Shown: in pieces, positions 25,999 through 35,070 of the stretch | How the letters are laid out: the number at the start of each line of letters is the position of its first letter | Position numbering within the stretch: position 1 is the stretch's first letter | Source of the DNA: Syntrophobacteraceae bacterium | Lineage (GTDB): Bacteria > Desulfobacterota > Syntrophobacteria > Syntrophobacterales > Syntrophobacteraceae | Length of the DNA stretch: 58,682 nt | Assembly (NCBI GenBank): GCA_031292215.1 | Contig: JARLHO010000022.1 | Coordinates: 1-58,682, forward strand | Direction: 5' to 3' | Made by a program: the position numbers and the translations under genes | Notes under the pieces: model-generated | The model's database searches: none | The model's input: the letters and a program-made list of their open reading frames with translations, nothing else | Told to the model about the DNA's origin: nothing

Positions 25999-26632
25999 GC
26001 CCCGTTCCCCAGATTCTATGGTGCAACAATCACCCGCGGCCTCATGCCTTGCCTGCGGTGATCGAAGGACCGTTTACGCGTAGCACTTCGAAAGAGTCTC
26101 TTTAAAAGGAAGAACCTTTATCGAGAGATAAGGATTGCTCCATCCGAACAAAACGCTTCGACGGACGCCGCAGCAACTCTACCCTTATGACCAGGGGCGG
26201 CGAGCGGCGTCGTTTCGCAAGGACCTCTCCTGCAGGGTTCTTTTCGTAAGAACCAAGAGGGTTTGATCCAACACATAGAGCAAGTTTTGGGCCAAAGCCA
26301 GGGGGCTGCGACGCCCAAATTAATCCGGAAGACGCAACGGGTATGAATGGGCAGAGGAAGAGGCGCGCGCGACCGCTCCTCTGCGGTGGACCGGCCGCTC
26401 AGTGCGCGATGCCCCCCCCCCCTCCCCCTGCCCCCAAACGGCCTCAAGGGATCGAGCCGGGGTTTTTGGGGCCCCCGTAGGTGCTGGAGCCAAATCGCTT
26501 CGGGTGTGGAATTTGAGATCGGGGGAGTAAAAAAAAGGGGACGCGATCCGGTGCGCTTTCCTATGAGGATGCGGGGTAGTGGTGCTAAAGTCCATGAGAT
26601 ACTCTTTAACAAAACCTCGCATTCCCCGGTCT
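25999..26632. other. Gene-free stretch
   Basis: Between the PilZ and Mug genes. It includes a C-rich run near 26410-26440. I see no gene or RNA I can support. Confidence 0.4.
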
Positions 26633-27223
26633 TTATCGATCTGCCGGTAGAATGTAAGGAGTATCTGATTTTTCGGTAGCCTCTCTTAGCTCTATCAGCA
26701 ACCGCACGAGTTCTTTCATCGGGTAATTCGCGTTTATTCCGCTCGGGCCGGGCAAAACCCGGGCGGTGGAGATACCGGCTATTTCCTCCCGGCCGGGGCC
26801 CGGCGAGGCCTCAGGTTGCAAGAAGGCTCTCCGGTAAGCCCCAAGGCCCGGGACAGCGCAAAACCGGGGCTTAAAGACGAGAACCTTTTGTGCTAGCGCC
26901 CGCCCGCCTACGGCCAGTTCCTCTGCTCCCGGTTCATCAGCTCTGGCCGTTGCCCGTTGCACCAGGTTAACGATTCCACAGCCGTAGCGCAGGAGGTTTT
27001 CTTCCTCGAATGGCGAAAACAGCCTCGGAGTAAAACCGGCATGGTAGAGCGCGGGCCAGAACCGGTTGCCGGGCCTTGCGAAATGGCGCCCCGTCGCTGC
27101 CGTATAGAGGCCGGGGTTTATGCCGCAAAAGAGCACTTTTAGCCCCGGGGCTATGAGGTCGGAAACGGTCTTTGCCTTAGCGTCAAGTATCTGTTTTTTT
27201 GTTGGCTTAAAAGATTTGTGCAT
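26633..27223 (-). CDS. mug: Mismatch-specific (G/U, G/T) DNA glycosylase, Mug type
   Basis: 196 residues. It removes uracil or ethenocytosine opposite guanine. The family motif is GINPGLYTAATGRHFARPGNRFWPAL, with the catalytic Asn in GINPG. The second active-site block, LPGPSGINANY, corresponds to NPSG-type loops. The ending is polar and slightly longer than the E. coli protein (168 residues). It stands alone on the minus strand between unrelated genes. Confidence 0.9.
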   Translation of the reverse strand: MHKSFKPTKKQILDAKAKTVSDLIAPGLKVLFCGINPGLYTAATGRHFARPGNRFWPALYHAGFTPRLFSPFEEENLLRYGCGIVNLVQRATARADEPGAEELAVGGRALAQKVLVFKPRFCAVPGLGAYRRAFLQPEASPGPGREEIAGISTARVLPGPSGINANYPMKELVRLLIELREATEKSDTPYILPADR

Positions 27224-27475
27224 CGGATTCTTCTGTCTTTTTTCACTCTAAGAACGAAAGGGCGATAGTAAAGCATCTGGGCCGGATGGGCCAATTGATT
27301 TCGCCTGAGCGGACCGGACAGGAGCTTTTCCGGAGTTATGGCATGAACAATGCATATACTTAAATAACTGGACAATCGGCCGTGACGAAGGACGAAAGCT
27401 TTCCCTTTACTTTCTTCCGTTTTTGGGCAATAAAGCCAAATTCAAGTCATTTGTAAAAAAAGGGGCAAACAAAGT

Positions 27476-27775
27476 TTGGCAAGCAAACAGGGAGCGATAT
27501 CAGCGCCCGTTCCCGTCAAAGGCAGGGGGAATGGGGTCGGGCAGGCGCCCGAAGCCGCCTCTCGGGTCGAAATGACCTCGCGTGGCAGCGTTGTGGCGGG
27601 TTCGAGCATCGGCGTGGAAGGCGCCGCCTCCACCTGGTTTCGAGGATTACTTCTGCGCAGAAGGTGCGATTCCTGTGGAACGAGGATCCGCATACTCGGA
27701 GAAGGCGATGACAAGGTGTTTATGAGATGCCCTGAATGTTTGCGTGAATATGTTTTTTTCCACCGCCACGAATAG
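27476..27775 (+). CDS. Small zinc-ribbon protein
   Basis: 99 residues if the TTG at 27476 is used; an ATG at 27572 gives 67 residues and keeps the recognisable part. The C-terminal third carries a zinc ribbon, CDSCGTRIRI ... MRCPECLREYVFF, with two CxxC pairs 18 residues apart. The N-terminal half is low complexity. Function unknown; such ribbons bind nucleic acid or act as structural scaffolds. A longer overlapping minus-strand frame has no motif and is rejected. Confidence 0.5.
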   Translation: MASKQGAISAPVPVKGRGNGVGQAPEAASRVEMTSRGSVVAGSSIGVEGAASTWFRGLLLRRRCDSCGTRIRILGEGDDKVFMRCPECLREYVFFHRHE

Positions 27776-27944
27776 GCCCACTCCTTTTTAACCCCATCCC
27801 CTGCAGTAAATAGCACCCCCGACCCAATCGGTAACCGTTTGACTAAAAGACCTCGTGTGGAGCAAGGGAGCTGCACGCCTTATGGATGTGGTTTTGACCG
27901 GGAAAGTTTTCGGATTTGTCCCTCGGGTTTGGTGTAGGCCCCGG

Positions 27945-28010
27945 GTGAGCGCCCGGTCACGTATCTGTTTGACAAGGCAGGCTCGATTTGTATAATGACC
28001 GCCTGGTCAT
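27945..28010 (+). promoter_or_regulatory. Sigma-70 promoter of tetR-mqn operon with two palindromic operators
   Basis: TTGACA (27969-27974), 16 bp, TATAAT (27991-27996): full consensus boxes. A perfect palindrome ATGACC-gcct-GGTCAT (27995-28010) overlaps the -10 and start site. A second, 5/6-match palindrome GTGAGC-gccc-GGTCAC (27945-27960) lies exactly 50 bp upstream, just before the -35. The layout fits autorepression by the TetR protein encoded 20 bp downstream. Confidence 0.75.
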
Positions 28011-28030
28011 TTTAATCGATTAGAGGTTGC

Positions 28031-28723
28031 ATGGCTGCCCGCGATACGTTTACCAAACTAGGCGAAGACAAAAAGGCCAGGATACTGGATGTGGCCGTGG
28101 AGGAATTTTCGCGCCACGGGTTCCGGCAGGCGAGCGTAAATCGCATGGTGGAAAGCATCGGTATCGCCAAGGGATCGCTTTTTCAGTATTTTGGAAGCAA
28201 AGAGGGGTTGTTCACGGTCATCTTCGACCATGCCGTGGAACTGGTAAGACAGTCTTTGCGGCAGGTGAAAAAAGAGAGCTGCGAGAAGGATTTCTTCGGC
28301 CGGATAAAGGAGAGCCTGCTTGCGGGAATCCGCTTTATCGAGCGCCACCCCAGGGTCTACCGAATTTACCTCAAGATGATTTTTCAGGAAGATTTTCCGC
28401 TAAGAGCCGAGTTTTTGGAGCAGGTGCATCTTTTTTCGGCCGAATATCTTCAGCCGGTAGTGGAGGCGGGCATCGAACGGGGGGAGCTCCGGCCGGATAC
28501 CGACGTAGAGATGACCGTGTTCATGCTTGACGCTCTCATGGACAGGTTGCTGCAGGCGTACTGCGTTCCTTTTTTAGACGCGGGGGCAAGTATTTACAAG
28601 GCGCCGGCAGATGTGCTGGAGCGAAAAGTAGACGAGTTTATCAAGTTGCTTCGGTGTGGGATGGGCGCCGCAGGGGGGCGTTTAGTCCCGCAAGGAGGAG
28701 GGGGGGTGGGAGAATATGTTTGA
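28031..28723 (+). CDS. TetR/AcrR-family transcriptional regulator
   Basis: 230 residues. N-terminal TetR HTH (KARILDVAVEEFSRHGFRQAS, then VNRMVESIGIAKGSLFQYFGSKEGLF). The remainder is helical ligand-binding domain (FIERHPRVYRIYLKMIF, MTVFMLDALMDRLLQAY). It is the first gene behind the promoter with two GGTCA-type palindromes and overlaps mqnE by 8 bp, so it almost certainly regulates its own operon, the menaquinone genes. The ligand is unknown; acyl or quinone-like compounds are possible. The last 20 residues are Gly-rich. Confidence 0.88.
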   Translation: MAARDTFTKLGEDKKARILDVAVEEFSRHGFRQASVNRMVESIGIAKGSLFQYFGSKEGLFTVIFDHAVELVRQSLRQVKKESCEKDFFGRIKESLLAGIRFIERHPRVYRIYLKMIFQEDFPLRAEFLEQVHLFSAEYLQPVVEAGIERGELRPDTDVEMTVFMLDALMDRLLQAYCVPFLDAGASIYKAPADVLERKVDEFIKLLRCGMGAAGGRLVPQGGGGVGEYV

Positions 28724-29840
28724 GCCACGCTACTATAGGAACTTCGGTCTTGAGGAGATCGCCCGCAAAGTTTGCGACCGGGAAAGGCTAACGATTGCGG
28801 ACGGAGAAAAGCTCTTTGCCTGCCCGGACTTAAACGCCGTTGGCTCGCTTGCCCACGAGGTCAGGAAAAGGCTTTACGGAAACCAGGCATATTATGTCGT
28901 AAACCGGCATATCAATTATTCCAATATTTGCGTCAATGGCTGCCGCTTCTGCGCTTTTAGCAAGAAAAAGGGCGATCCGCTTTCCTTTGAACTCTCCGAG
29001 GAGCAAATCCTTGAAAAAATCGGCGCCAATGGACACGATTTGACGGAAATCCACGTAGTCGGCGGCTGCCACCCGGATCTGCCTCTTTCCTTTTTCGAGG
29101 GTCTTATCGGTAAGATTCGGGAGCTACAACCGCATGCCTTCATCAAGGCCTTTACAGCAGTCGAGGTCGCCCATTTCGCAAAAAAAGAGGGGATCGCGAT
29201 CGCTCAAGTTTTAGCCCGGCTAAAAGCTGCCGGCGTGAAGATGATGCCGGGCGGGGGGGCGGAAATTTTTAGCGACCGGGTAAGATCTCTTCTTTGCCCG
29301 GAAAAGCTCGACGCCCGCGGCTGGCTCGATTGCATACGACAGGCGCATGAAATGGGAATTAAGACCAACGCCACGATGCTCTACGGCCATATCGAGACCC
29401 GGCTGGAAAGGCTCGAGCACCTGGTGGCCCTTCGCGAGCTCCAAGACCGGACCGGGGGGTTTGTCTGCTTTATCCCCCTTAGTTTCCAGACGGCCAATAC
29501 CCCGCTTGGGGCCATGGAGCCGCCAACCGGGGTCGAAGACTTAAAAACGATCGCTATCAGCCGCCTGATGCTCGATAACATCCCCCACATCAAGGCCTAT
29601 TGGGTGATGCTCTCGGCAAAAGTCGCCCAGGTCGCCCTCTACTTCGGGGCAGACGACTTCGACGGCACGGTGGTGGAGGAAAAGATAGGGCACATGGCCG
29701 GGGCAAAATCCCGGCAGGAAATGACGCGAAGCGAGATCGAGGGGATCATCCGGGACGGGGGGTTTTTGCCCGTGGAACGTGACAGCCTATTTCGAAAAGC
29801 CGGCCGGGATTTTTTGGAAACGGTTGACAGTAAGGTGTAA
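28716..29840 (+). CDS. mqnE: Aminodeoxyfutalosine synthase (radical SAM)
   Basis: 374 residues. It joins 3-enolpyruvylbenzoate and SAM to form 6-amino-6-deoxyfutalosine, second step of the futalosine menaquinone route. The 4Fe-4S motif is CVNGCRFCAF in the context HINYSNICVNGCRFCAFSKKKGD. Later landmarks are HVVGGCHPDLPLSFFEGL, MMPGGGAEIFSDRVR, TNATMLYGHIET and GGFVCFIPLSFQT. The ATG overlaps the tetR stop, implying coupling; mqnC follows after 3 bp. Confidence 0.93.
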   Translation: MFEPRYYRNFGLEEIARKVCDRERLTIADGEKLFACPDLNAVGSLAHEVRKRLYGNQAYYVVNRHINYSNICVNGCRFCAFSKKKGDPLSFELSEEQILEKIGANGHDLTEIHVVGGCHPDLPLSFFEGLIGKIRELQPHAFIKAFTAVEVAHFAKKEGIAIAQVLARLKAAGVKMMPGGGAEIFSDRVRSLLCPEKLDARGWLDCIRQAHEMGIKTNATMLYGHIETRLERLEHLVALRELQDRTGGFVCFIPLSFQTANTPLGAMEPPTGVEDLKTIAISRLMLDNIPHIKAYWVMLSAKVAQVALYFGADDFDGTVVEEKIGHMAGAKSRQEMTRSEIEGIIRDGGFLPVERDSLFRKAGRDFLETVDSKV

Positions 29841-29843
29841 GTT

Positions 29844-30908
29844 ATGAGTCAAAACGGCAGGTTAAACCTGGAGCAGGCGAAAAGCCTTTATGTGGACGGT
29901 GATTTCTATACGCTGGGCCGCATGGCCCATGAAGCGCGCCTTGGAAAACACGACCGCCCGATTGTCACCTATGTGGTTGACCGCAACATCAATTACTCCA
30001 ATGTATGCGAGTGCGGATGCCGTTTCTGCGCATTTTTCAGGCCCGTTGGCCACAGCGAGGGCTATGTTCTCAGCCGGGAGGAGCTGTCCCAAAAGATCGA
30101 GGAGACCCTTAAGCTTGGCGGAACGCAAATCCTTTTGCAGGGCGGCCATCACCCCGAGCTGCCGTTTTCCTTCTACGAGGACATGCTTGGATTTATAAAG
30201 TCCCGGTATCCGATCCACATACATGCTTTCTCGCCCCCGGAGATCGTGTTTTTCGCCCGGCGGGAGTCCCTTAACGTAAAAGAGGTGATAGCGAGGCTCA
30301 AAATCGCGGGGTTGGATTCGATCCCCGGGGGGGGAGCTGAAATTTTAGTCGATTCGGTAAGGCAACGGGTGTCTCCTCGCAAATGCTCGGCCGCCCAGTG
30401 GCTTGCAGTGATGGAGGAGGCGCACGCACAGGGGCTTCGAACGACTGCCACCATGATGTTTGGCCACGAGGAAACGGTCGAAGACAGGCTCACCCATCTT
30501 TTCGCCCTGCGAGACCTCCAGGACCGCACGGGGGGCTTTACGGCCTTTATCCCCTGGGCCTTCCAGCCGCAGAACACCGCGATCCGAAGGGAACCCGAAA
30601 CGGCGGTGTCCTACTTAAGGCTTCTGGCGATATCCCGGCTCGTTTTGGACAATTTCGAAAATATTCAGGCCTCCTGGGTGACAATGGGGCCCAAGGTCGC
30701 TCAGGTGGCCCTTTTTTTCGGCGCAAACGACTTCGGCTCAACGATGATCGAGGAAAATGTCGTGGCGGCCGCAGGGGTGAGTTTTCGCCTTTCGGTCCAG
30801 GAGATCCGCCGGGTAATCGAGTCGGCAGGGTTTTTGCCGCGTCAGCGGACGATGGCCTACGAACTGCTCTGCGACTCGGCCGGCGAACGGGAGGGGAAGG
30901 TGCTGTGA
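29844..30908 (+). CDS. mqnC: Cyclic dehypoxanthine futalosine synthase (radical SAM)
   Basis: 354 residues, a paralogue of MqnE. It cyclises dehypoxanthine futalosine by a radical SAM mechanism. Cluster motif CECGCRFCAFFRP after RNINYSNV; the MqnC-type QILLQGGHHPELPFSFYEDM, SIPGGGAEILVDSVRQRVSP and TTATMMFGHEETVEDR are present, and GGFTAFIPWAFQPQNT separates it from MqnE. It starts 3 bp after mqnE; its stop TGA overlaps the GTG start of mqnX. Confidence 0.94.
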   Translation: MSQNGRLNLEQAKSLYVDGDFYTLGRMAHEARLGKHDRPIVTYVVDRNINYSNVCECGCRFCAFFRPVGHSEGYVLSREELSQKIEETLKLGGTQILLQGGHHPELPFSFYEDMLGFIKSRYPIHIHAFSPPEIVFFARRESLNVKEVIARLKIAGLDSIPGGGAEILVDSVRQRVSPRKCSAAQWLAVMEEAHAQGLRTTATMMFGHEETVEDRLTHLFALRDLQDRTGGFTAFIPWAFQPQNTAIRREPETAVSYLRLLAISRLVLDNFENIQASWVTMGPKVAQVALFFGANDFGSTMIEENVVAAAGVSFRLSVQEIRRVIESAGFLPRQRTMAYELLCDSAGEREGKVL

Positions 30909-32143
30909 AGGGGGTCGATGAAATCCCGGGGCAGCCGCTGATTCACCGGGCCCAGTGGCTTATGCCGGTGTGCGCTGCCCCCGTTGCAAACGGCGCGGTT
31001 TTTACCTCGGGGGGCCGGGTCGTTTTCGCCGGCGCCTACGCGAGCGTAAAAAAGGAGTGTCCCGCCGGAACCCGTGTGATCGACCACGGCCGGGCGGCGC
31101 TTTTCCCTGCCCTTGTAAATTCTCACACGCACTTGGAACTCTCCGGCCTAAGAGGCAAAATAGCTTTCCCCCAGCCTGGCTTTCGCGAGTGGATAAGGCT
31201 CCTGTTCGACCTTCGGGCCCAAACGGCATCGGAGGCGCCCGAGCGGGCCTTAAGGCTTGGAGAAAAGGAGAGCTTTGCGAGCGGCACAGGGCTTTGCGGG
31301 GATATCACCAATGGGGGCGCGGCGCGCCGGTCGGATTGGGGGGGGGTGGAGAGGCTGATTTTTCTCGAACTCCTGGGGTTTAACCTCGATTCGCTCACGA
31401 GTTCGATGCCGCCGGGTCTTCTCCTGGACCCATCCGGTCTTATCCCGGCGCCTCATTCGGTTTATTCGGTTTCCGCCCCGATCATTTCCGAGTGCAAGGA
31501 GTGGACACGGGGGCGCGGGCTTCCCCTTACGATGCATGTCGCCGAACATGTAGACGAAATCGAGTTTTTACAGACCGGAAAAGGTTTTTGCCGCGAACTG
31601 CTGGAAAGCCTGGGGAGATTTCCCCCCGGATGGAAGCCGCCCGGAAAAACCCCGGTAGAATATCTTGACTGGCTGGGCGCACTCGACGCAAACACAATGC
31701 TCGTACACGCGGTTCACCTGTCGGAGTCGGACTGGGCGCTTGCCGCAAAGAGAAACTGCTCGGTGGTTTTTTGCCCCAGAAGCAACAGTAACCTTGGCGC
31801 CGGCCGAGCGCGGATTGAAAAGGCGCTCTCCCTGGGCCTCAATTGCTCCCTTGCTACCGACAGTCTTGCCAGTAACACGGATCTCGATCTTTTTGCCGAA
31901 GCCGCTCACGTCTTCGCGAGCCACCCGGCGATCGACCCCGAAAAAATCCTTGAAATGATTACGGTAAACCCCGCCCGCTCGCTTGGTCGCGCGGGGGATT
32001 TCGGGTGTATCGCGCCGGGGGCCACAGCGAACATGCTTGCGGTGGCACTCGGAGCGGGCGCAAATGAGTCGAGCCTTGCCCAATCCCTTATCGAATCAGG
32101 AAAAAAAGGAGCATGGAAATGGGTGAACAATCAGCGGGCTTAA
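30905..32143 (+). CDS. mqnX: Aminodeoxyfutalosine deaminase (amidohydrolase)
   Basis: 412 residues from GTG 30905, preceded by a GGAGGGGAAGG ribosome binding site inside mqnC. It deaminates 6-amino-6-deoxyfutalosine to futalosine. Amidohydrolase metal ligands: NSHTHLELSGL, HVAEHVDEIEF, HAVHLSES and the terminal Asp in LATDSLASN. The frame is open upstream inside mqnC to 30383, but that part has no homology and is rejected. It overlaps mqnA by 31 bp. Assignment as MqnX rather than a generic SAH deaminase rests mainly on context. Confidence 0.88.
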   Translation: MKGVDEIPGQPLIHRAQWLMPVCAAPVANGAVFTSGGRVVFAGAYASVKKECPAGTRVIDHGRAALFPALVNSHTHLELSGLRGKIAFPQPGFREWIRLLFDLRAQTASEAPERALRLGEKESFASGTGLCGDITNGGAARRSDWGGVERLIFLELLGFNLDSLTSSMPPGLLLDPSGLIPAPHSVYSVSAPIISECKEWTRGRGLPLTMHVAEHVDEIEFLQTGKGFCRELLESLGRFPPGWKPPGKTPVEYLDWLGALDANTMLVHAVHLSESDWALAAKRNCSVVFCPRSNSNLGAGRARIEKALSLGLNCSLATDSLASNTDLDLFAEAAHVFASHPAIDPEKILEMITVNPARSLGRAGDFGCIAPGATANMLAVALGAGANESSLAQSLIESGKKGAWKWVNNQRA

Positions 32144-32964
32144 GGCTTGGAAGGATAGATTTTCTAAACGTTCTTCCGATCTACCATGCGCTTGAAGCGG
32201 GCATGGTCGAAAATCCCTTCGAGATCATAGCCGGGGATCCCGCCCGGCTAAATGATCTTTGCGCGGGAGCAGAACTGGACATAAGCCCTGTTTCCTCCAT
32301 AGAGTACGCTCGTCGAGCGGAGCTCTATCAGATAGTGCCGGAAATCTCCATTAGTTCGGCGGGTGAAGTAAAGAGCGTGCTGCTTCTTAGCCGCATGCCG
32401 GTCGAAGGGCTAACGGGGAAAAGGGTCCTTCTTAGCTCGAAGTCCCAAACCTCGGTGGGGCTGCTAAAAGTTTTGTGCATGCGCTACGGGGTTACCCCGA
32501 AGTTCGAGACCGGATCGTGTCTGGAATGTTTTGTGGAAAGCGAGCGTCCCGATGCGTGCCTTGCCATAGGAGACGAAGCGCTGCGGCTTGCGGCGAGCGG
32601 TCTTTACCCACACGTACTCGACCTCGGCGCCGCCTGGCTCAAGTGGACCGGGCTTCCTTTCGTTTTTGCCGTATGGGTGGTGCGAAGGGACGTGGTCAGG
32701 GACAAATCCGCGCAGTTGCCCCGGGCAATCGAGGCCCTTCTGTCTTCCAAAAGATGGGGTCTTGCCAACATCTCCCGGATCTGCGAAGTGGCCGCCCAAA
32801 CGGGCTTAATGCAAGCGCGCGAGTTCGAGGAGTACTACCGCTGTCTTCAGTACGAGTTGAACGAACCGGAGAAAAGAGGGCTCGAACTGTTCTACACCTC
32901 GCTTGTTGAGGCGGGGGAACTCGATCGCGTGGCTGCGCTCGACATGTATACGCCCTTTGCCTAA
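32113..32964 (+). CDS. mqnA: Chorismate dehydratase
   Basis: 283 residues. First step of the futalosine pathway: chorismate to 3-enolpyruvylbenzoate. The periplasmic-binding-like fold begins LGRIDFLNVLPIYHALE, followed by LDISPVSSIEYARR, VLLSSKSQTSVGLLKVL and CLAIGDEALRLA. The chosen ATG gives a short polar N-terminus; a second Met at codon 3 is also usable. It overlaps mqnX by 31 bp and ends the operon. mqnB/MTA nucleosidase and mqnD are not in the window. Confidence 0.93.
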   Translation: MEMGEQSAGLRLGRIDFLNVLPIYHALEAGMVENPFEIIAGDPARLNDLCAGAELDISPVSSIEYARRAELYQIVPEISISSAGEVKSVLLLSRMPVEGLTGKRVLLSSKSQTSVGLLKVLCMRYGVTPKFETGSCLECFVESERPDACLAIGDEALRLAASGLYPHVLDLGAAWLKWTGLPFVFAVWVVRRDVVRDKSAQLPRAIEALLSSKRWGLANISRICEVAAQTGLMQAREFEEYYRCLQYELNEPEKRGLELFYTSLVEAGELDRVAALDMYTPFA

Positions 32965-33341
32965 AGTGGCGTGAGGGGGTTTGACTACCCCTCCCGGGAT
33001 TTGCGCTGCGGGGCGCCTTGCCCGCACTACTCCCGGGGGCCGGCTAAGAGCCCCCCTGGAGCGACCTATAGCAAAAATCGGCTCGCAAGGAATGTTTTTT
33101 CCCTTCCGGCTGCTTTTTTTGCCCCATTGCTTTTTCCCTATCTGGTTGCCTTATCTATTGCCGCTTCTGGTTTCCCCTTCCCGTTGCCGTTTTGCAGACC
33201 GGGGCAATGGGAGCTAAAATCCGGAGCACCCAAAGTGGAACCAGCGGCTTTGCTGGGAAGCGGCGGTTTTTTGCCGTTTTTTTTTCCCCTTCGTTTCTAT
33301 TCTCACCCGATCACCGGTCAGGGGCCAGGGAGATACAGTCA
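32965..33341. other. Gene-free stretch between mqnA and the DUF5681 gene
   Basis: About 375 bp, pyrimidine-rich on the plus strand (several T-runs, 33100-33300). No gene or clear terminator; the T-runs could assist termination after mqnA. Confidence 0.4.
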
Positions 33342-33803
33342 ATGGCTAATACATGCGAGCCTAAAGCTAAACGCTCGAGCGGATGGGGACGCCCGTTTTG
33401 CAAAGGCCAATCGGGCAACCCCAAGGGCAGGCCCAAGGGGAGCCGGAACAAATCCACACTCATCGCCCAGGCGCTCCTTGAGGGAGAAGCCCAATTGCTT
33501 ACGAGAAAAGTGGTGGATAAAGCCCTTGAAGGCGACAGGACCTGCCTTCAAATCTGCATGGACCGGTTGATCCCGAAAAAAAAGGACTCGCCGATCAAAT
33601 TCAACCTGCCTCAAATCGGGGCCTCCTCGGATATTCCAAAATTTTTAGCCGCCATTGCGGCCCGGTTTGAAGATGGGGAAATCACACCGGTAGATGCCCG
33701 GGCTCTGGCCGATCTGGCCAATGCCTATCGAAAACTAATCGAAATGGCGGAGCTCGAACCGCGCGTTAGCGAACTCGAAGAGATGATTGAACAGCAGAAA
33801 TGA
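33342..33803 (+). CDS. DUF5681-type small basic protein
   Basis: 153 residues from ATG 33342, with AGGGAGA upstream. The N-terminal FCKGQSGNPKGRPKGSRNKST is the hallmark of the DUF5681 family, found in many proteobacteria and often near phage or accessory DNA. The middle is helical (LIAQALLEGEAQLL, VVDKALEGDRTCLQICMDRL) and the end is a coiled coil (ELEPRVSELEEMIEQQ). Function not established; DNA binding or a terminase-small-subunit-like role is conceivable. Confidence 0.7.
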   Translation: MANTCEPKAKRSSGWGRPFCKGQSGNPKGRPKGSRNKSTLIAQALLEGEAQLLTRKVVDKALEGDRTCLQICMDRLIPKKKDSPIKFNLPQIGASSDIPKFLAAIAARFEDGEITPVDARALADLANAYRKLIEMAELEPRVSELEEMIEQQK

Positions 33804-33921
33804 GCTTTTTGGACCCTTGCGCGCGGCCCCGTTCCAAGGCTGGTAGCGCGCGCCGGACTTATTGCCGGGTCGCTTCCATCAGTGCGGGGGCGACCCGGCG
33901 ATTGGTTTTCCCCATGCCCGG

Positions 33922-35070
33922 TTAATCTTTTTCCCAAACTCCCAGGGTATAATTGTAGAACCACCGTGGGTTTGAGCTCCCCACATCATAGAAAAGCCAT
34001 GTTTGGTCGCTGGCTCGGTATACGAATGGATAGACTGTCTGGCTCGTCCACCAAAACGTTTGCATCGTCTGGTCCCAAAACCAGACGTTGTCTGTGGAGG
34101 TCCCGAAGGGAAAGAGCCATCCATGGGTTTCATGGTATATCCAGGGACAATAGTTTGCGCTAAATTTGCCGAACCAGCTCAGATACAGCCAGTCGTTTCC
34201 ATCGTCTGTAGCGTTTTGCCAGAGTGGGGACCCCGGTGAAAGCGAAGCCGTGATGGTGACCGGGATTGTCTGCGTGCCGACGTTAAAGTTGCCGTCGATG
34301 TTTCCAAGGGAGTTAAAACTCGTCCGGTCGAGGTTGGTAAACGAGGTCACTATGCCGGCCGGGTTCGTTACCCCGCCCACGTTGGTGACACTCGAAAGCG
34401 CTACGACGAACTGGTAGGAGTCCCCCGCCACCAGGGGCACTATCACTTGCTGGGACGAAGCCACAAGGCTTGAGAGGCTGAAGGTTTGCGAGTCCAAAAG
34501 CGTGGTGGTGTTCTGGTTGGTATCGGTCCGAAAGATTTGGACCATCCCGGTAAGCTGAGGTGTGGGCGCTTGGGCCGTCCCCGTTGTCGTGCCGCTCCAG
34601 TCAAGCGGCGCCAGGGCGGAGGCCGAAAGGATATAATAGCCTGTCGAGCTCACCGTGAAGGGTCGGTTGATATAGGAGCCTACATTCTGTCCGTTCAGGC
34701 AGACCCCCACGGGGTTGTCCAGAGCGAAGCAATTGTTTGCATAGACGTTGACCGTCGCACCTCCTGAATCCTTATCCGAATTCTGGAACGACTTGCCCCA
34801 GGCCCCCGAAGCCATGGTCAAACCCGGCTGCGATTCGGTAGCGGTTGCCACGTCGGAATTTTCCAAATTGCCCGAGGTTGAGGATTTTTCGGCCGCAGCG
34901 CCTAACATGGCAGGGGGGGGGCCATTGGGGGTGGGATTATAGTAAATCCCCCCCGCATCTTGGGTCTTGTAATCGAAATAGTCGCTCGACCAGGTGATGG
35001 TGGCCTGCGCCTTCGAGAAGACAAAAAGAATACATCCCAAAATTAGCAGCAAACCGATTTTCATCCTCAT
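33922..35070 (-). CDS. Exported protein with Trp/Tyr-rich C-terminal domain
   Basis: 382 residues from ATG 35070 (GGGGGAG ribosome binding site). Signal peptide (IGLLLILGCILFVFSKAQA), a Ser/Thr/Asn-rich beta-type middle (TVSSTGYYILSASALAPLDW, VPLVAGDSYQFVVALSS), and a final ~85-residue domain dense in aromatic residues (WLYLSWFGKF, CPWIYHETHGWLFPF, NVWFWDQTMQTFWWTS, YPFVYRASDQTWLFYD). I recall similar C-terminal tails in secreted proteins of Verrucomicrobia-like bacteria, where they may anchor or sort the protein. Function unknown; a decayed N-terminal copy lies at 23.18 kb. Confidence 0.68.
   Translation of the reverse strand: MRMKIGLLLILGCILFVFSKAQATITWSSDYFDYKTQDAGGIYYNPTPNGPPPAMLGAAAEKSSTSGNLENSDVATATESQPGLTMASGAWGKSFQNSDKDSGGATVNVYANNCFALDNPVGVCLNGQNVGSYINRPFTVSSTGYYILSASALAPLDWSGTTTGTAQAPTPQLTGMVQIFRTDTNQNTTTLLDSQTFSLSSLVASSQQVIVPLVAGDSYQFVVALSSVTNVGGVTNPAGIVTSFTNLDRTSFNSLGNIDGNFNVGTQTIPVTITASLSPGSPLWQNATDDGNDWLYLSWFGKFSANYCPWIYHETHGWLFPFGTSTDNVWFWDQTMQTFWWTSQTVYPFVYRASDQTWLFYDVGSSNPRWFYNYTLGVWEKD

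Follow-up and report, generated by a model that had tools for sequence, protein, structure and literature searches.

A putative TetR-type autorepressor and a shared operator ahead of menaquinone genes of different supply routes in Syntrophobacteraceae and related bacteria

What controls the supply of the menaquinone head group, and which molecule would carry the signal? This question is raised by a stretch of 58,682 nucleotides from a Syntrophobacteraceae bacterium (contig JARLHO010000022.1 of assembly GCA_031292215.1), here called the window, in which a tetR gene heads a tightly packed operon of the futalosine route in the order tetR-mqnE-mqnC-mqnX-mqnA. To our knowledge, little has been described about how menaquinone supply is controlled at the level of transcription. 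An original prediction had proposed that the regulator acts on two palindromes at the promoter of this operon. Our comparative analysis indicated that a TetR-type repressor very probably shuts the menaquinone genes off at a widely shared DNA site. As the best explanation of the whole, we propose with considerable confidence that the TetR protein represses its own gene together with the supply of the menaquinone head group.

The promoter lies on the plus strand and consists of a -35 box TTGACA (27969-27974), which is conserved in many Syntrophobacteraceae-type loci, and a -10 box TATAAT (27991-27996) at a distance of 16 bp. It matched the consensus at 12/12 positions and was the sole such match among the four promoter-like sites (9/12 or better) in 26000-35000, where shuffles lead one to expect 3.8 sites of this class. 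The main operator O1, ATGACC-GCCT-GGTCAT (27995-28010), is a perfect palindrome whose core is kept in relatives. It takes in just the final two bases of the -10 box and then the presumed start site. An upstream operator-like palindrome O2, GTGAGC-GCCC-GGTCAC (27945-27960), has one core mismatch, is placed exactly 50 bp upstream of O1 and ends 8 bp before the -35 box. The original prediction thus held for the perfect O1 and for the position of the near-perfect O2, and its statement that O1 covers the -10 box had to be reduced to those two bases. When up to one mismatch to the consensus was allowed, O1 and O2 were the only sites in the whole window; shuffled windows gave a mean of 0.24 matches, and 2 of 100 shuffles reached two. 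We consider that the strong evidence against chance is the comparative one.

We compared the tetR locus of the window with 44 of 46 related loci found, which gave 45 loci in all (loci, genomes and contigs are labelled L, G and C throughout). L053, whose tblastn figures equal those of L052, and L078, a Clostridium locus with 25% identity, were dropped before the count. The core TGACC-N4-GGTCA was present without mismatch upstream of tetR in 45/45 loci, and no case of non-conservation was seen. Letter counts over the 56 sites in these loci gave the operator consensus RTGACCRSSYGGTCAY. A promoter of 11-12/12 ran into the operator exactly like that of the window in 24 loci, and in most Desulfovibrionales-type loci no promoter of the window's geometry scored. 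These positions also bear on the sign of the control. Some TetR proteins activate, and the second site upstream of the -35 box in part of the genus would suit an activator. Nevertheless, activation instead of repression is very improbable, because the conserved site overlaps the -10 end and the presumed start in those 24 loci, where binding should block the polymerase, and the promoter boxes of the window are already at consensus. In the repression mechanism that we favor, a predicted dimer on O1, overlapping the -10 box and the presumed start, would block RNA polymerase by steric hindrance. The regulator and the enzymes would be made only while the quinone supply is short, and the regulator would control its own gene.

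A second operator copy 50-52 bp upstream was found in only 7/45 loci, namely the window and six relatives at 83-88% identity, which represent 7 of the 11 same-genus genomes. The upstream copy of the window is the sole damaged core among these seven, the six close relatives having a perfect one. Other pairs were spaced by 15 bp (4/45 loci) or 22 bp (2/45), and 32/45 loci had a single site. Paired operators, which the original prediction had described for the window, were therefore not supported as a general feature. Judged by the same spacings, its proposal of two dimers on one DNA face was not upheld as a general rule. Such an arrangement would be a local feature at most, since pairs at 50-52 bp occur in only 7 of the 45 loci and the mqnE pairs of group B (see below) differ in geometry. 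In part of the genus, repression would be stronger with the second palindrome, which would not be essential.

The analysis was extended to a phylum sample of 395 genomes, 92 of which matched the regulator profile at 1e-20. The strong orthologs numbered 77, from 357 down to 191 bits, and the next match scored 141.5 bits; L229-L231, which carry the same genes as L187-L189, were dropped before this count, and eight weaker matches were used as the paralog outgroup. A perfect core site was observed upstream of 55 of the 77 orthologs, compared with 0.01 of 77 expected after these upstream regions had been shuffled with their dinucleotides preserved. According to their neighbors, the orthologs formed three groups. 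In group A (n = 52), mqnE was downstream in 51 and the contig ended there in one (L265); the core was perfect in 48/52 and had one mismatch in 4/52. In group B (n = 18), tetR was not beside mqnE; mqnB was downstream in 17/18 and mqnD in 15/18, with neither in L283, and no perfect or one-mismatch site was found before tetR in 18/18. In group C (n = 7), the import type, neither mqnE nor mqnB was downstream, and the site was perfect in 7/7. Outside the tetR-mqnB type, a site within one mismatch was accordingly found upstream of tetR in all 59 orthologs. The pairing of this regulator with this operator was seen in many families of the phylum. A quick tree without bootstrap placed the 77 orthologs in one clade against the eight paralogs (Shimodaira-Hasegawa approximate likelihood-ratio test, SH-aLRT, 100), and the three neighbor types needed six changes on it, the minimum being two. 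The residues A34, S35, N37, K47, G48, Y53, F54 and K57 of the recognition region, numbered as in the window, were kept by at least 90% of the members in each group.

Group B separates the operator from the regulator gene. If the palindrome were merely part of the tetR promoter, it should vanish with the move of tetR. Instead, a site was found before mqnE in 14/18 group B genomes, the nearest copy ending 17-106 bp from the MqnE start-equivalent. The distance between mqnE and tetR is about 9 kb in G355, and in the other 13 genomes mqnE is on a separate contig or more than 100 kb away. By sequence, the operator is a companion of the target and not of tetR. As controls, the core was absent from 30/30 mqnE loci, as fetched, of genomes without a regulator match at 1e-20, and likewise from 30/30 PF02621 loci outside the tetR operon, which were taken as mqnD. 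It may still be proposed that the promoter has these palindromes by chance or for structural reasons and that the TetR protein acts elsewhere, and TetR genes do often lie near unrelated operons. This explanation is hardly credible against a core kept in every one of the 45 loci, a perfect site before 55 orthologs and the sites of the 14 genomes whose tetR is elsewhere. The conserved operator, where it overlaps the promoter, together with these detached sites, supported the proposal of a dedicated, probably autoregulated TetR control. Two mqnE sites 43-57 bp apart were present in 9 of the 14 genomes (eight of the nine genomes of family f21, and G355). These paired operators (L312-L314, L318-L322 and L332) have a geometry unlike that of the window pair. 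In family f21, as seen by eye, the first site overlaps a -10-like box in several members; the second is found between the promoter and the gene.

Several observations weigh against the proposed autorepressor or limit its reach. A match to the MqnE profile was found in 236 phylum genomes (192 over the cut-off), and 70 of the 236 had a strong regulator ortholog. The remaining 166 had none, some of their matches being MqnC or CofH relatives, since only 192 exceed the MqnE cut-off; the control is therefore not universal. A core-like palindrome was also present upstream of one of the eight TetR paralogs (L243). Among the strict sites of four group B genomes (G111, G358, G074 and G426; 4/18), none was before mqnE. 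The 30 mqnE control loci were the best-scoring ones and not a random draw. The mqnB-mqnD pair of the window's own genome has no site; therefore, the control would cover the head-group pathway only partly in this genome. As a separate observation, G111, in which mqnE was found with no site in front, carries a core palindrome GTGACC-AGAG-GGTCAC directly before its mqnL gene (L310:1501), which was not counted in the 14/18.

The regulator was also found before genes of other supply routes. In the seven group C genomes (G061, G098, G190, G092, G213, G154 and G425, with G213 only 73% complete), no MqnE profile match was detected at 1e-60, a threshold that would also catch MqnC (the MqnC of the window scores 342.7 bits on the MqnE profile). 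No PF02621 protein was found, and no MenB exceeded the cut-off of 342.7 bits. The MenB search gave weak crotonase-family matches in every genome, all under this cut-off, the best being 331.8 bits in G375, which has futalosine genes, and 284.6 bits in the import-type G092. The classical route is likely absent from G092, as judged from MenB only. In G061, G098 and G190 (L229-L231), tetR is followed by MqnL, an MqnP-like prenyltransferase and an ATP-binding cassette (ABC) importer with an SsuA/NMT1-type binding protein. Family searches on the G061 and G098 proteins gave 636.3 bits for MqnL, the menaquinone decarboxylase (cut-off 495.9), and placed the prenyltransferase under the MqnP cut-offs and over the UbiA-like cut-off. 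A second core site was located directly before mqnL in 3/3 of these loci (L229:1557, L230:1568 and L231:5951). The same operator precedes the loci of G092, G213, G425 and G154 (L232-L235). In G092, G154 and G425, an importer of the same kind is followed by MenG and MenA relatives (family searches on G092), and in G213 the contig ends after the importer ATPase. The straightforward reading of this gene content is that group C cells would import a dihydroxynaphthoate and finish it; relatives within the ABC family carry other compounds, which by their family names include sulfonates, taurine and nitrate.

Two further loci connect the routes. G262, which belongs to the genus of G061, G098 and G190, holds both gene sets in one run (L292 and L327; G262:C251:6200-20500) with the order tetR-mqnE-mqnC-MTAP-like-mqnX-mqnL-mqnP-ABC importer, where the methylthioadenosine phosphorylase (MTAP)-like phosphorylase takes the place in which mqnB might be expected. 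No PF02621 protein, neither MqnA nor MqnD, was found in this genome, which is 92% complete. On a contig of an unclassified bacterium (L076:4860-10417), tetR and two operators head classical menaquinone genes. These include 3-deoxy-D-arabino-heptulosonate 7-phosphate (DAHP) synthase (389.6 bits, cut-off 335) and MenD (401.5 bits, cut-off 244.2), together with relatives of isochorismate synthase (214.6 of 224.75 bits) and MenH (166 of 208.55 bits) that remain under their cut-offs. The L076 regulator falls inside the ortholog clade, on a long branch.

These loci bear on the nature of the signal. The original prediction had named a quinone, chorismate or an acyl compound as the sensed metabolite. 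A route-specific metabolite (chorismate, aminofutalosine, futalosine or 1,4-dihydroxy-6-naphthoate) would suit a futalosine regulator proper, the other operons being secondary captures with a changed ligand. The futalosine setting is indeed the commonest, with mqnE downstream in 51/77 orthologs (one more contig ends there) and mqnB headed in 17 of the 25 others. However, the operator and several recognition-region residues are unchanged in the import-type loci, the operator is unchanged in the classical-type locus, and the import type requires more than one change on the tree. We therefore regard a route-specific signal as rather unlikely. Since genomes that lack futalosine genes also carry orthologs with this operator, chorismate and the futalosine-route intermediates are unlikely ligands. 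Instead, we propose a signal common to all supply routes, since the same regulator and operator precede futalosine genes in some genomes and classical Men genes or a putative importer of naphthoate in others. Group C cells without MqnA, MqnE and MqnC should make no futalosine intermediates, and the naphthoate is presumably not the same in the MqnP/MqnL type as in the MenA type; this leaves (demethyl)menaquinone and polyprenyl diphosphate as shared candidates. The likeliest signal would be (demethyl)menaquinone as co-repressor, a proposal in which confidence and doubt are about balanced. Polyprenyl diphosphate, the co-substrate of the prenyltransferase, would come next as an inducer and has a clearly smaller likelihood. 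Of the metabolites named originally, chorismate thus lost ground and the quinone gained it, a quinone end product or the isoprenoid substrate fitting better. Against the common signal, the ligand of the regulator may have changed with its operon, which would weaken the argument. Somewhat more tentatively than for the co-repressor, we suggest that (demethyl)menaquinone is the lipid ligand by which a route-independent sensor directly follows the quinone pool, and that the SsuA/NMT1-type ABC systems controlled by this sensor are the missing dihydroxynaphthoate importers. With the same reserve, one TetR lineage with one operator would then serve the futalosine route, the classical Men route or an imported head group.

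The protein itself is an ordinary member of its family. The 230-residue product of tetR (28031-28723, plus strand) contains the TetR helix-turn-helix domain PF00440 (51.7 bits, cut-off 24) and PF21256, the all-helical C-terminal ligand/dimer domain (35.2 bits, cut-off 27), in agreement with an overall TetR fold. The palindromic operator near its own promoter, a trait of the TetR family, is likewise seen in the sequence. An AlphaFold model (predicted local distance difference test, pLDDT, 88) had the ordinary TetR fold, and 341 chains matched it at E 0.001 or better in a structure search. Many TetR proteins have this fold, and the model names no ligand. FadR, FasR and TM1030 with octanol are among its best fold matches, which might suggest that a lipid or acyl-CoA signal of membrane state is sensed in the manner of FadR or FasR, with the quinone genes as one output. 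We consider this quite unlikely, since the FadR and FasR family models scored 45.5 of 200 and 35.4 of 330 bits, far under their curated cut-offs, the fold is so widely shared, and no fatty-acid gene was recognized in the operons examined, where the search was not systematic.

TetR autorepressors are a well-known kind, and our regulator would belong to it with an unusual regulon, for which an earlier prediction in a regulon database is possible. The acyl-CoA repressors FadR of Bacillus and FasR of Mycobacterium have the same fold and size, and solved relatives hold lipophilic ligands. The regulator of the window differs from them in falling short of their family models and in its linked genes, which serve quinone supply. 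The closest solved structure was Caur_2714 of Chloroflexus aurantiacus (PDB 3nrg), which was matched over nearly the full length (profile E 1.3e-37) and superimposed on the model with Z 19.3 and a root-mean-square deviation of 3.9 over 208 residues at about 30% identity; it is described only as a TetR family regulator, with no target or ligand given. The mqnEAC operons of the futalosine pathway (PMC4746308) combine the same enzymes in one operon, and the main-text passages of that source name genes and enzymes and make no mention of regulation or TetR. According to PMC9835592, MenD is feedback-inhibited by 1,4-dihydroxy-2-naphthoate. That system likewise controls menaquinone synthesis by a late intermediate; it works on the activity of a classical-route enzyme, whereas the control proposed for the window is transcriptional. 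Our searches of open-access papers, with subscription papers and regulon databases outside them, turned up neither a regulator of the futalosine route nor a named importer of this type. With the supply route changing under a constant regulator-operator pair, the sensed molecule should be easier to pin down, and bacteria without the early pathway are predicted to have a specific ABC importer for naphthoquinone precursors.

The tetR-headed operon and its exact TTGACA-16-TATAAT promoter were confirmed. All genes are on the plus strand. The aminofutalosine synthase gene mqnE (28716-29840; TIGR03700, 481.5 bits, cut-off 434.55) overlaps tetR by 8 bp and is separated by 3 bp from mqnC, which encodes cyclic dehypoxanthinyl futalosine synthase (29844-30908; TIGR03699, 499.1 bits, cut-off 428.1). 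An overlap of 4 bp leads to the mqnX-like amidohydrolase gene (30905-32143; PF01979, 129.4 bits), which is named aminofutalosine deaminase by context, its product scoring 117.5 bits against PRK08418, under the cut-off of 320. The last gene, mqnA of the chorismate dehydratase family (32113-32964; PF02621, 238.5 bits, cut-off 26), overlaps mqnX by 31 bp, and an NCBIfam search of its product at 0.001 gave no match. The PF02621 family cannot separate MqnA from MqnD; we took this gene as mqnA because of its place in the operon and the separate mqnB-mqnD pair. That pair consists of an MqnB over the cut-off at C169:17122-17856, on a contig separate from the operon, and an adjoining second PF02621 gene, taken as mqnD. 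With both side by side elsewhere, the genome would have the head-group route. The assembly comprises 4.89 Mb in 177 contigs and is 97% complete, and its nearest relatives with a name, all metagenome-assembled genomes, carry the label Syntrophobacteraceae or Deltaproteobacteria.

The strict core occurred at three places in the window's genome, including the operator. The other two were considered as a wider regulon and taken as chance; C175:64079 falls in sequence that appears to be coding, and C66:15278 falls where open frames overlap. With up to two mismatches, the core was found at 204 places, compared with 94 for the control. Among the listed extra strict sites of relatives, the 13 loci that were read (L161-L168, L113, L118 and L097-L099) showed no quinone gene alongside, as judged by eye and not by family search. 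In G037, eight copies with a GTGACC core seem to belong to a repeated element. A divergent mqnD-like gene lies across the operator region in L062, L065, L067, L068, L070-L074, L077, L181 and L186; therefore, one site could serve both directions. Two tetR genes were observed in one genome in G019 (C47 and C56, with three PF02621 proteins) and for L053 and L054; thus, the system seems duplicated in some relatives. Downstream of the window operon lies an open frame of the DUF5681 family (33339-33902), with a strong terminator-like hairpin at 33861-33902.

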